From the NCBI GenBank assembly GCA_012521105.1, contig JAAYNA010000084.1:92406-156405 (forward strand): a stretch of 64,000 bases of DNA, read 5' to 3'. Origin of the DNA: Clostridiaceae bacterium. Its GTDB lineage: Bacteria; Bacillota; Clostridia; DSM-8532. The position numbers were made by a program, and so were the translations under genes. The notes under the pieces were generated by a model. That model had not been told where the DNA came from and ran no database searches. It was given only the letters and a program-made list of their open reading frames with translations. The first letter of the stretch is position 1. Each line of letters begins with the position of its first letter. This document shows, piece after piece, positions 57,882 through 62,667 of the stretch.

Positions 57882-57910
57882 TTGACATCGTTCATAAATG
57901 CAAATATAAT
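57882..57910 (+). promoter_or_regulatory. Consensus promoter TTGACA-N17-TATAAT for TRAP operon leader
   Basis: Perfect -35, spacing and -10. Confidence 0.9.
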
Positions 57911-57916
57911 GGTAGT

Positions 57917-58088
57917 GTAGGATGGTAGTACGGAAGCAAACAGTATATAACTAATACGGTTGTATTTGTAGTATTGCGTTATGGTTTTGTGAGTTTTTCT
58001 TACCTGATAGAGTAAGAAAATTCCTTAGAAAATATGCAATATTTTGCAATACATATGTTTCCAGAACCTCCTACGGGGGTTTTTTTTA
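57917..58088 (+). ncRNA. Riboswitch-like/attenuator leader upstream of dctP
   Basis: 5' GTAGGATGGT complementary (one bulged U) to ACCTCCTAC in the terminator 5' arm; internal hairpins; no class recognised. Confidence 0.55.
58065..58088 (+). terminator. Intrinsic terminator AACCTCC-TAC-GGGGGTT + T-tract within dctP leader
   Basis: 7-bp stem followed by run of T's, upstream of the dctP start. Confidence 0.8.
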
Positions 58089-58113
58089 TTACTTTTTTTA
58101 GGGGGTATAAACC

Positions 58114-59178
58114 GTGGGAAAGTTTGGAAATTTAGCTCAAACAATTTTTATCAGAGGGCTGCTGATTTTAGCGCTATTATTTGCACTGATAATTCAATCT
58201 TCTTGTGTAGGCACTGTATCTGCTGAAAAAGAAGGTGCAATCGAACTTAAGCTTGCTCATTTCTTTCCGGGAACTCACCCTGCAGAAACAGAATTGGTAC
58301 AGGGATGGGCGGAAGCAATTAAGGAGGCAACAAACGGGAGAATTATTATTACAAGTTATCCCGGTGAGACACTTCTGAAAGCCGCAGATATTTATAAAGG
58401 TGTTGTGGATGGAATTTGCGACATCGGTCTTTCATGTTTCTCTTATAATCCGGGGCGTTTTCCGGAAATAGAGGCCTTTGAGCAACCAGGCATCGTATAT
58501 AAAAACTCAAAAGTGGCCAGTAAGGTTGCCTGGGAGGGCATACAGGAACTTAACCCTGAAAGCGTAAAGGATACAAAACTGTTAATGGTTATAGCTACAG
58601 GTCCTGGTGATCTCTTTACCAAAAAGCCGGTAAACAAACTTGAGGATATAATTGGAATGCAAATCAGAGCCACAGGGTTAACAGCCGAAACCCTTCAGCT
58701 TACGGGTGCAATTCCTGTTGGCATGCCTCAGTCCGAGGCATATGAAGCATTATCAAAAGGTATTGTGACTGGAAACCTGGCACCGATAGAAGTGCTTAAA
58801 ACATGGAAGCATGGTGAAGTTACCAGGTATATCACAAGAACTCCCTTCCTTTACAATAACCTGTTTTACATTACAATGAATCTGGATAAATGGAATTCCA
58901 TACCTGAAGAGCTCCAGGATATAATTGTTGACACTACTCTTAAATTTCAGGATGAGGTTGGAATCGGGCTTTGGGACAGACAGAATGAAGATGCGCTAAA
59001 ATGGGCAATTGAAGAGGAGGGTATGGAAGTTATAGATCTGTCAGACGAGGAAATGGCCAGGTGGATAAAAGCAGTTGAACCGATGTTGGATAAATATATA
59101 GAGGAAAAAGGTGAAACAGGCAGTAAAGCAGTTGATATAGCCAAAAGGCTTGCAGAAAAATACAATAAAGTGTATTAA
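58114..59178 (+). CDS. dctP: TRAP transporter substrate-binding protein DctP (GTG start)
   Basis: Signal peptide; IELKLAHFFPGTHPAETELVQGWAEAIKEATNGRI; followed by dctQ and dctM. Confidence 0.93.
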   Translation: MGKFGNLAQTIFIRGLLILALLFALIIQSSCVGTVSAEKEGAIELKLAHFFPGTHPAETELVQGWAEAIKEATNGRIIITSYPGETLLKAADIYKGVVDGICDIGLSCFSYNPGRFPEIEAFEQPGIVYKNSKVASKVAWEGIQELNPESVKDTKLLMVIATGPGDLFTKKPVNKLEDIIGMQIRATGLTAETLQLTGAIPVGMPQSEAYEALSKGIVTGNLAPIEVLKTWKHGEVTRYITRTPFLYNNLFYITMNLDKWNSIPEELQDIIVDTTLKFQDEVGIGLWDRQNEDALKWAIEEEGMEVIDLSDEEMARWIKAVEPMLDKYIEEKGETGSKAVDIAKRLAEKYNKVY

Positions 59179-59237: not shown

Positions 59238-59717
59238 ATGAATAAGTTTGAGAAAATTGTTACAAAAACAAGCCGTCTGCTGGATGATATTGCGGGCTGG
59301 GTAATTGTTGCTACAATGGCGCTTGTTGTTGTAAATATCATTTTAAGAGCTGTGTTTAAAAATCCTGTTAAAGGTGTTTATGAATATACAGGGTACTTAA
59401 CAGCCCTTGTTATAGGTTTTGCCATTGCACAATGTGCTATTGAAAAGGCCCACATTGCAGTTGACTTTTTTATTGAAAAACTGAACCTAAAAGTACAATT
59501 GATCATTGATACTGTATTAAGTGGGTTAATAATACTTTTTCTTGCTTTTAGCAGTATCCAGGTATTCCTTTATGGAATTAATGTAATTAGCAGCGGTGAG
59601 GTCTCAGCAACGGCCCATTTACCGTTTTATCCTTTTATATTTATGGTTTCAGCAGGTCTTTTTATTTTATGCCTGGTTGAAATAAACAAAGTAATAAAGG
59701 GGGTTGCAAATAAATGA
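59238..59717 (+). CDS. dctQ: TRAP transporter small permease DctQ
   Basis: 4-TM; GVYEYTGYLTALVIGFAIAQCAIEKAHIAVDFFIEKL. Confidence 0.93.
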   Translation: MNKFEKIVTKTSRLLDDIAGWVIVATMALVVVNIILRAVFKNPVKGVYEYTGYLTALVIGFAIAQCAIEKAHIAVDFFIEKLNLKVQLIIDTVLSGLIILFLAFSSIQVFLYGINVISSGEVSATAHLPFYPFIFMVSAGLFILCLVEINKVIKGVANK

Positions 59718-61024
59718 CACCTCCTGTTATAGGTTTAATTGGAATTGTAATTTTGCTTATATTAATTCTATTGCGGGTACCAATAGCATATTCCATGCTG
59801 ATCGTTGGTTTCACAGGTTTTGCTTTACTGGTTAAACCCGATGCTGCATTCTCAATGGTAGCCACAGAAATTTTTTCTAATTTCTCGTCCTATACATTAA
59901 GTGTAATTCCTATGTTTGTATGGATGGGGTTTATTGCATATTATTCCGGGGTAGGAACAAATTTGTATGCTCTTGTTTATCGGTTCATGGGTCGTCTTCC
60001 GGGCGGTCTTGCAATTGCAACCCAGGGTGCGTGTGCGATTTTTGGTGCAATATGCGGCTCAAATACTGCTACAGCAGCTACAATGGGTGCAATAGCACTC
60101 CCTGAAATGAAAAAGTATGGCTATGATGACTCTTTATCCACAGCAAGTGTTGCGGCTGCCGGTGCTTTAGGCGTACTTATACCGCCGAGCGTAATCTTTA
60201 TCATTTACGGCGTGTCCACCGAGCAATCCATAGGCAAACTTTTTATTTCAGGGATAATACCCGGCATTCTTTTAATGCTGTTTTATATGGCTACAATATA
60301 CATCCTGGTAAAAAGAAATCCTTCTCTTGTGGCAGCTACCGATAAACCAGCTAAAGTACAAAAGCGATCAATTTTAAACAGTGGATTGCCCGAAATACTT
60401 TTAACATTTTTAATTTCCCTTGGCGGTCTTTTCGCAGGTTATTTTACACCAACAGAAGCAGGTGCGGTAGGTGCAGGAAGTATACTTTTAATAACTCTGT
60501 TAAGAAGGCAGTTAACCTGGGAAGGCTTTAAAAATTCCCTTCGGGATACCACAAGAACATCGGGCATGATTATGCTTCTTGTTGCAGGTGCCATGGTTTT
60601 TGGCCGTTTTATGGCAGTCAGCCGTTTGCCCTTTGAAATGGCAAACTGGGCTTCTAACCTCAATTTACCACCCGTTCTGATAATGATAGTAGTATTGATT
60701 ATCTACATGATACTTGGCTGTTTTATTGATGCATTGGCTTTGATTCTTTTAACCGTACCTATATTTTATCCAGTTGTTGTTGACGTTTTGGGTTATGACC
60801 CAATCTGGTTCGGTGTTATTATTGTAATGGTTGTTGCAGCCGGAGTTATTACACCGCCTGTAGGAATGAACGTGTTCATTATTAAAGGCGTGGCAAAGGA
60901 TGTTCCACTGGAAACAATATTTAAGGGAGTATGGCCTTTCTTGTTGGCACTTATGGCCTGTATTGCGGTTTTGATTATATTTCCGCAACTGGCAACCTTC
61001 TTACCAAATTTGGTTAGCGGATAA
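59714..61024 (+). CDS. dctM: TRAP transporter large permease DctM
   Basis: LRVPIAYSMLIVGF; GAICGSNTATAATMGAIALPEMKKYGYDDSLSTASVAAAGALGVLIPPSVIFIIYG. Confidence 0.96.
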   Translation: MTPPVIGLIGIVILLILILLRVPIAYSMLIVGFTGFALLVKPDAAFSMVATEIFSNFSSYTLSVIPMFVWMGFIAYYSGVGTNLYALVYRFMGRLPGGLAIATQGACAIFGAICGSNTATAATMGAIALPEMKKYGYDDSLSTASVAAAGALGVLIPPSVIFIIYGVSTEQSIGKLFISGIIPGILLMLFYMATIYILVKRNPSLVAATDKPAKVQKRSILNSGLPEILLTFLISLGGLFAGYFTPTEAGAVGAGSILLITLLRRQLTWEGFKNSLRDTTRTSGMIMLLVAGAMVFGRFMAVSRLPFEMANWASNLNLPPVLIMIVVLIIYMILGCFIDALALILLTVPIFYPVVVDVLGYDPIWFGVIIVMVVAAGVITPPVGMNVFIIKGVAKDVPLETIFKGVWPFLLALMACIAVLIIFPQLATFLPNLVSG

Positions 61025-61032
61025 AATTGATA

Positions 61033-61060
61033 AAAGCTCCGATATTACGGAGCTTTTTTT
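61033..61060 (+). terminator. Intrinsic terminator AAGCTCCG-atatta-CGGAGCTT + T-tract after dctM
   Basis: 8-bp perfect stem and U-tract. Confidence 0.9.
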
Positions 61061-61275: not shown

Positions 61276-62667
61276 ATGCCAAAAAAAGTTTTTAATGAAT
61301 TAGCGTACAAAAATCTTAGTGATTTCATTTTTGGTTCCTCCATCCATCCTGTCAAGTGTAAGAATGGGCTTGTTATAGGCGGCGGAAAGGTTTTTCCCGA
61401 ACTCAATTTCACTCTTCCGCCCATGTCTATAACAAAAGAGACAATGCCCGAGGTTTTGAAACAGTATAAAAGTATTATGGAGGATGCATGCAAAAGGGCA
61501 CGGGAGCTATATTCACCCGGTTTTGTAGCAGAGGTAGAGCTCCTTCCGCCAACCACCTACCATCCTGAATGGGGTATTGAAATAATAAAAACAGTCCGGG
61601 ATATAATGAATGAGTATGAGCAAAAATATGGTTTAAAAAGCGCTCTGAGGGCGACCCCGGTGGATATCCGTGAAGACAGGGAATCAGTACATATGTGGAA
61701 AGGAAGGCACTGGGAATTAGTCCTTGAAACCTTTGAAGGCTGTGCAAAGGAAGGGGCAGATTTTCTGGCCATCGAATCCATTGGAGGAAAAGACATCCAC
61801 GACGATGCTATAGTTTTTTGTGATCTCCCGAAATCTCTCTTTGCGCTGGGTATTTTAGGCGCAAGGGATATGTCTAAATTATGGAGTGCAATAGTGGACA
61901 TTGCTGACAAAACAGGAAGCTTTGCATCAGGTGATACCGCCTGCGGTTTTGCCAATACTGCAATGGTTCTGGCAGAAAGAGGATATATTCCTAAAGTATT
62001 TTCGGCTGTCGTCAGAGTTATGTCTGCTGTCAGAAGCCTTGTTGCTGTTGAGGAAGGAGCTGTTGGTCCGCATAAGGATTGTGGTTATGAAGGCGTATAT
62101 GTTAAGGCCATTACAGGAATACCAATTTCAATGGAAGGTAAGTCAAGTGCATGTGCCCATTTAAGTCCACTTGGAAATATTTCTGCTGCAGTTGCAGACC
62201 TGTGGAGCAATGAGTCGGTCCAAAATATAAGGCTATTAGGTGGCATGGCTCCAACGGTCTCAATGGAGCAGCTGAGCTATGACTGCAGACTTATGAACGA
62301 AGCTTCAGCAAAAGGAAGGGAACAGGTGTTATTGCTGAGAGACATGCTCACCGATTCGGACAGCAGATTTGATCCACAGGCTTACGTTTTAAGGCCTGAC
62401 GTGGTGCTGAATATTTCTAAGGAAATTGTTAAGGAAACCGGTCACTTTAACAGGACAAAAGCTGCGGCCGTTGCAACCATAGATGAGCTAAAAGCAGCAG
62501 CTTCGGAAGGAAAAGTAATTATAGAAGAAAGAGAACTTTCCTGGCTGGATATTATAAAAAGCCAAATCGAAGCAATTCCCCGGGATGAAGAGAAATTTAT
62601 TCATCAGATGGTTGAAGAAAATGCATCGGATAAATTTATACCAGAAAAATATGATTTAAATGTATGA
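61276..62667 (+). CDS. mtaB: MtaB-type methanol:corrinoid methyltransferase
   Basis: Along its length resembles Methanosarcina MtaB: FLAIESIGGKD, ASGDTACGFANTAM, GAVGPHKDCGYEGVYVKAITGIPISMEGKSSACAH, DLWSNESV. Confidence 0.9.
   Translation: MPKKVFNELAYKNLSDFIFGSSIHPVKCKNGLVIGGGKVFPELNFTLPPMSITKETMPEVLKQYKSIMEDACKRARELYSPGFVAEVELLPPTTYHPEWGIEIIKTVRDIMNEYEQKYGLKSALRATPVDIREDRESVHMWKGRHWELVLETFEGCAKEGADFLAIESIGGKDIHDDAIVFCDLPKSLFALGILGARDMSKLWSAIVDIADKTGSFASGDTACGFANTAMVLAERGYIPKVFSAVVRVMSAVRSLVAVEEGAVGPHKDCGYEGVYVKAITGIPISMEGKSSACAHLSPLGNISAAVADLWSNESVQNIRLLGGMAPTVSMEQLSYDCRLMNEASAKGREQVLLLRDMLTDSDSRFDPQAYVLRPDVVLNISKEIVKETGHFNRTKAAAVATIDELKAAASEGKVIIEERELSWLDIIKSQIEAIPRDEEKFIHQMVEENASDKFIPEKYDLNV

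Follow-up and report, generated by a model that had tools for sequence, protein, structure and literature searches.

A predicted HutP-dependent attenuator in the dctPQM leader of a clostridium and its place in an aromatic amino-acid regulon

The leader of the dctPQM operon in the window, as we call the whole 64,000-nt stretch of Clostridiaceae DNA analysed here (contig JAAYNA010000084.1), is probably a HutP-dependent transcription attenuator that belongs to a clostridial aromatic amino-acid regulon and has an aromatic amino acid as its ligand. The anatomy of the leader, its conservation, a motif recurring regulon-wide, the link of that motif to aromatic genes, and the co-occurrence and adjacency of hutP were all computed here; we infer HutP as the binder, the amino acid that it would sense and the direction of control. 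The features of the leader and of the operon are the following.

57882 to 57910, plus strand: sigma-70-type promoter, TTGACA-N17-TATAAT
57917 to 57936, plus strand: predicted HutP-family binding site, GUAGGAUG-GUAGUACG-GAAG, with NAG triplets at 57918-57920, 57926-57928 and 57934-57936 (8-nt period)
57917 to 57937, plus strand: predicted 5' strands of the antiterminator, GUAGGA (57917-57922), GGU (57924-57926) and GGAAGC (57932-57937)
57938 to 58056, plus strand: variable interior with lineage-specific hairpins, not conserved
58057 to 58062, plus strand: 3' strand of the inner antiterminator helix, GUUUCC, kept in the nine family leaders
58063 to 58088, plus strand: intrinsic terminator, AGAACCUCCUACGGGGGUUUU and a U tract, also present in this position in each of the nine homologous leaders
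58066 to 58074, plus strand: 3' strand of the outer antiterminator helix, ACCUCCUAC, which doubles as 5' arm and loop of the terminator
58114 to 59178, plus strand: dctP, TRAP solute-binding protein (PF03480, E 7e-45; NF037995), with the Shine-Dalgarno sequence AGGGGG at 58100-58105
59238 to 59717, plus strand: dctQ, TRAP small permease (PF04290)
59714 to 61024, plus strand: dctM, TRAP large permease (PF06808, TIGR00786)
61032 to 61057, no strand assigned: symmetric terminator ending the dctPQM unit before mtaB, hairpin AAAAGCTCCG/CGGAGCTTTT with a T run

Much of the anatomy given in the preliminary description, which had read the leader as riboswitch-like, was borne out. The promoter matches the consensus at 12 of 12 positions and ranks best among 27 promoter-like sites in 8 kb, a span in which shuffled sequences yield 26 sites irrespective of quality. 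Transcription of dctPQM is expected to begin at about 57916-57918, and the spacing between the -10 element and GTAGG is exactly 6 nt in the nine homologous leaders. The outer helix joins GTAGGATGGT (57917-57926) to ACCTCCTAC (58066-58074) with one bulged U, as had been described, and the terminator likewise consists of a hairpin (58063-58083) followed by a T run. The nested helix is also present, in the form of six contiguous pairs, GGAAGC/GTTTCC, between 57932-57937 and 58057-58062 with one G-U pair, rather than the interrupted GGAA..AAAC pairing first proposed. The three inner hairpins that had been noted do exist in the window sequence, but they are not conserved, the element ranging from 90 to 182 nt in the homologues. 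The nascent RNA up to the terminator loop (58074) has a predicted folding energy of -46.4 kcal/mol, whereas shuffled sequences average -28.7 (z -4.7); once the terminator is included in the fold, little energy separates the form with the terminator from that with the antiterminator. Pairing of the first 26 nt with the 26 nt ending in CCTAC was equalled by 6 of 1000 dinucleotide shuffles of the window leader, and by 0 to 30 of 1000 throughout the nine family leaders. Terminator and antiterminator folds are mutually exclusive and conserved in homologues, as in a transcription attenuator, which supports the earlier view that the leader controls dctPQM as a terminator/antiterminator switch.

The homologous leaders were collected by a DNA search of relatives. 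The same leader precedes the same dctP in nine genomes from three genera of the window's family, one per genome; the order to which they belong is small. What is conserved is the two ends, GUAGGAUGGUANNAYGGRARC on the 5' side and GUUUCC..ACC.CCUAC plus the terminator on the 3' side, and each of the nine leaders is predicted to fold with both closing helices. A strict form of the 5' pattern had 13 matches in genome contigs, eight of them dctP leaders and the others judged from their context to be chance, and no match in viral contigs. A diverged dctP leader of the same architecture, with an outer helix GUAGG/CCUGC, was found in a distant clostridium of another family (G406), where the two ends pair less strongly and do not outdo shuffles (115 of 1000 as good). 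Two-sided covariation in the closing helices, which the preliminary description had looked to for support, was not seen on inspection of the nine leaders; a whole-leader MAFFT alignment misaligned the 3' part. The 5' arm is nearly invariant, and its few changes, such as GGAAGC to GGGAAC, keep the pairing one-sidedly. This near-invariance, in the absence of two-sided covariation, suggests that something besides base pairing fixes the 5' arm, and we propose that it is a protein that binds it.

The 5' segment of the window leader, GUAGGAUGGUAGUACGGAAG, is one case of a repeat, GNAGNAYG-GNAGNAYG-GNAG, that carries three NAG triplets with an 8-nt period and occurs in 5' leaders across Clostridia. 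Searched across the class, a pattern with RARC, the end specific to dctP, gave little above control, and only a variant ending in TAG revealed the regulon. With a relaxed pattern, 31 matches were found in 391 Clostridia genomes as compared with two for the reversed control, and a shorter pattern rendered about 72 matches, in 61 genomes, as compared with about 13. The columns that had not been used for selection agree as well, with G before the first triplet in 89% and A after the third in 74%, and conservation of the repeat stops after three triplets. Nearly all of the about 70 sites precede genes from one short list, for making, importing or degrading aromatic amino acids, although this count is a sample and not a census, since some of the search patterns share letters with the window. 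The enzymes on the list are DAHP synthase, chorismate mutase AroH, a lyase of the tryptophanase/tyrosine phenol-lyase type and an AMP-binding acyl-CoA ligase; the transport genes are those of TrpX (tryptophan ABC binding protein), an NSS (sodium:neurotransmitter-type) symporter, an SSS (sodium:solute) symporter, an LctP (lactate-permease-like) transporter and DctP. A large number of the sites cover Shine-Dalgarno sequences and start codons in part, as does GGAGGATGGTAGNATG before trpX, so that the repeat recurs without the rest of the dctP leader, at ribosome-binding sites in front of aromatic amino-acid genes.

The genome from which the window comes has two exact copies of the motif, one in the dctP leader and one before an acyl-CoA ligase gene adjoining trpS, and none of its reversed control. 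The order trpS followed by an AMP-binding acyl-CoA ligase, with a triplet site in the start-codon region of the ligase, was seen at L205 (1-2700) and L210 (2091-5075), and suggests that the trpS-linked ligase is an aromatic-acid CoA ligase under tryptophan control. The distance between dctPQM and trpX is 4 kb in two genomes; in genus g6 the dctP leader is found 4 kb downstream from a trpX operon, which has a site of its own and, with it, a gene resembling shikimate kinase. In genus g32 there are long leaders (L144, L147; L142, L143) that open with this triplet site, each followed by hairpins of its own; those at L144 and L147 lie 245-385 nt upstream of a tryptophanase-type lyase, and for this catabolic enzyme the sign of control may be reversed, to induction. 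A triplet site in G245 (L096/L138, 1501-1519) stands about 300 nt upstream of an aldolase-like gene of the DRE-TIM type with no obvious aromatic role.

NAG triplets suggested two candidate binders, TRAP (MtrB) and HutP. HutP (PF09021) is present in all genomes with the dctP leader, with an E value of 2.7e-49 in G000. Among the motif genomes it is present in 24 of 27, as compared with 129 of 391 (33%) in the unbiased draw overall (P 6.5e-10), and the association holds by genus (16 of 19, P 1e-6), kinship having been handled in these statistics by counting genera only. Two of the three motif genomes that lack HutP carry matches within coding sequence that look like chance from their context, and the third genome is 83% complete. 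In nine genomes hutP itself precedes the motif by 12-626 bp, both being on one strand, in the order hutP-motif-aroH or hutP-motif-trpX. More generally, clostridial hutP sits in a conserved block (L167-L186) with genes for an HI0933-type flavoprotein and a small secreted-type protein before it and (aroH), cmk and plsC after it; aroH is missing from the block in the window's family.

It is unlikely, although less so than the other alternatives, that the repeat is bound by a different regulator of aromatic amino-acid metabolism, one that binds RNA or DNA and simply tends to be inherited together with HutP. The regulon and the motif are better established than what binds them, and 105 of the 129 HutP genomes have no match at the stringent pattern, so that the motif may differ between genomes or HutP may have further roles. 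Against such a regulator stand the position of hutP next to the site in nine genomes and the location of the sites, which are in 5' leaders that are transcribed and on top of Shine-Dalgarno sequences; an 8-nt direct repeat would also be ill suited to a DNA-binding dimer. Moreover, B. subtilis HutP binds, as a hexamer, clusters of three NAG repeats (PMC7430163), which fits sites of exactly three triplets and the face of a HutP trimer. The window leader goes together with a HutP gene and a three-NAG cluster, both of which are expected of a HutP-regulated RNA, and binding is predicted from them. It counts against this reading that the middle triplet is UAA in seven of the nine family leaders.

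There is little chance that the repeat is instead the site of TRAP (MtrB, TrpBP), the tryptophan-sensing protein of 11 subunits. (G/U)AG triplets before tryptophan-related genes would be in keeping with it, and TrpBP is over-represented among the motif genomes (15 of 27, P 1.5e-4), but this association vanishes once HutP is accounted for, TrpBP adding nothing among HutP-positive genomes (P 0.29), whereas that of HutP persists among TrpBP-negative ones (P 4e-6). TRAP needs about 11 triplets spaced 5-6 nt apart, and the site has only three, 8 nt apart. In addition, PF02081 is missing from all nine dctP-leader genomes, G000 included, as well as from f41, f21 and other motif genomes. In many Clostridia, often HutP-positive ones, an MtrB homologue that closely resembles that of Bacillus is encoded between dnaE and pfkA (L126-L137).

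The clostridial HutP is distant from that of Bacillus, with about 21-23% identity by fold alignment and a weak profile match. The model of the G000 protein (pLDDT 90.5) matched only HutP structures at E<0.001 in Foldseek, with TM about 0.75, and a PDB sequence search with the clostridial protein found no HutP, the relation being recovered by Pfam and by fold. In the B. subtilis protein H73, H77 and H138 hold histidine and metal. The first two align with invariant glycines of clostridial HutP, in a weak profile alignment that leaves H138 uncovered, and to that extent argue for a ligand other than histidine. We consider tryptophan the most likely ligand, because trpX, trpS and tryptophanase-like genes keep company with the motif.

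As compared with the B. subtilis hut system (PF09021; PDB 1vea, 1wmq, 1wpu), the predicted one shares a HutP-family protein of the same fold by Foldseek, clusters of three NAG triplets in an mRNA leader and, as predicted here, amino-acid-dependent control of a terminator. It differs in that the clostridial targets are aromatic amino-acid genes and not hut, in that the site lies in the 5' strand of an antiterminator or at ribosome-binding sites, and in that binding is predicted to terminate or repress, the sign in the dctP leader being opposite to hut antitermination. The spacing differs too: the B. subtilis site has a 7-nt period with 4-nt spacers, and the clostridial one an 8-nt period with 5-nt spacers. 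These differences in sign and spacing, like the distance between the two proteins, weigh against the HutP reading. With the TRAP (MtrB) system of the Bacillus trp genes it would share a tryptophan-type regulon, NAG triplets and, in the mechanism proposed here, both the binding of an antiterminator strand so that a terminator forms and the translational repression of transporters; the protein is unrelated, three triplets take the place of about eleven, and TRAP is absent from the dctP-leader genomes. A search of open-licence papers found no published description of clostridial HutP or of such a control circuit.

That the leader is a small-molecule riboswitch of an undescribed class is about as improbable as TRAP binding. 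It has two mutually exclusive folds and, in agreement with the preliminary description, which had recognised no known consensus, an Rfam search of the leader gave no family at the gathering score, the matches at E<=10 being far below thresholds and none credible; any Rfam riboswitch class was rejected on this ground. However, the would-be aptamer is an interior of about 30 to 130 nt with no shared letters, and a new class was rejected in the absence of a conserved core with covarying helices, no two-sided covariation having been seen in the nine leaders inspected. The conserved letters are those of the triplet repeat, which recurs outside the leader fold at ribosome-binding sites. Nor did uronates, methanol or corrinoids, once suggested as ligands, find support. 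The gene for MtaB, a methanol:corrinoid methyltransferase (PF12176), at 61276-62667, lies beyond the terminator at 61032-61057, so the operon is dctPQM alone.

Least probable of all is the sensing of tRNA by a T-box-like element without stem I, or of translation through a leader peptide (AUG GUA NNA YGG). The internal loop of GGAUGGUA contains UGGU, as in a T-box antiterminator competing with a terminator, and an AUG opens a ten-codon frame (MVVRKQTVYN, window 57922-57954) five bases from the expected 5' end, but the leader has no stem I or specifier, has no Rfam match to the T-box (RF00230), sits at the first bases of the transcript and has other conserved letters, while the frame varies at positions 1-2 of codon 3 and interchanges CGG and UGG in a way that is not coding-like, and runs in the homologues from six codons to readthrough past the terminator. 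At other genes the repeat has its YGG as CGG and overlaps Shine-Dalgarno sequences. In Streptococcus suis, trpX is T-box controlled (PMC9382623).

On the preferred reading, a HutP-dependent attenuator, the RNA GUAGGAUGGUAGUACGGAAGC would be the target of the HutP homologue. When it is unbound, helices would form between the first 21 transcribed bases and the leader's 3' part, one of GUAGGA..GGU and ACC.UCCUAC and the other of GGAAGC and GUUUCC; the terminator would thereby be broken and dctPQM read. When an aromatic amino acid is plentiful, the ligand-loaded protein would grip the three NAG triplets as a single strand, so that the antiterminator would be blocked, the terminator would fold and transcription would stop. 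The leader is therefore expected to be ON unless its site is occupied, when it would be OFF, which differs in sign from the ligand-gated ON switch that had been one of the earlier suggestions. At those sites that overlap Shine-Dalgarno sequences, occupancy by HutP should block translation. On balance we favour, somewhat less firmly than the reading of the leader itself, a wider view: that in about a third of Clostridia a HutP paralogue has swapped histidine for an aromatic amino acid, probably tryptophan, and through NAG triplets spaced at 8 nt represses genes of uptake and synthesis, either by covering their ribosome-binding sites or by keeping antiterminators from forming. The logic would resemble that of TRAP but have evolved in an unrelated protein.

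These results give a testable function to a widespread clostridial protein family, HutP, present in 129 of the 391 sampled genomes, and define its predicted RNA site and regulon. They also predict that the DctPQM TRAP transporter handles an aromatic or shikimate-type compound. If the proposal is true, HutP-like control would extend in anaerobic clostridia to lyases of the tryptophanase type and to aromatic-acid genes, and tryptophan-dependent RNA-binding attenuation would have a second, independent solution beside TRAP.
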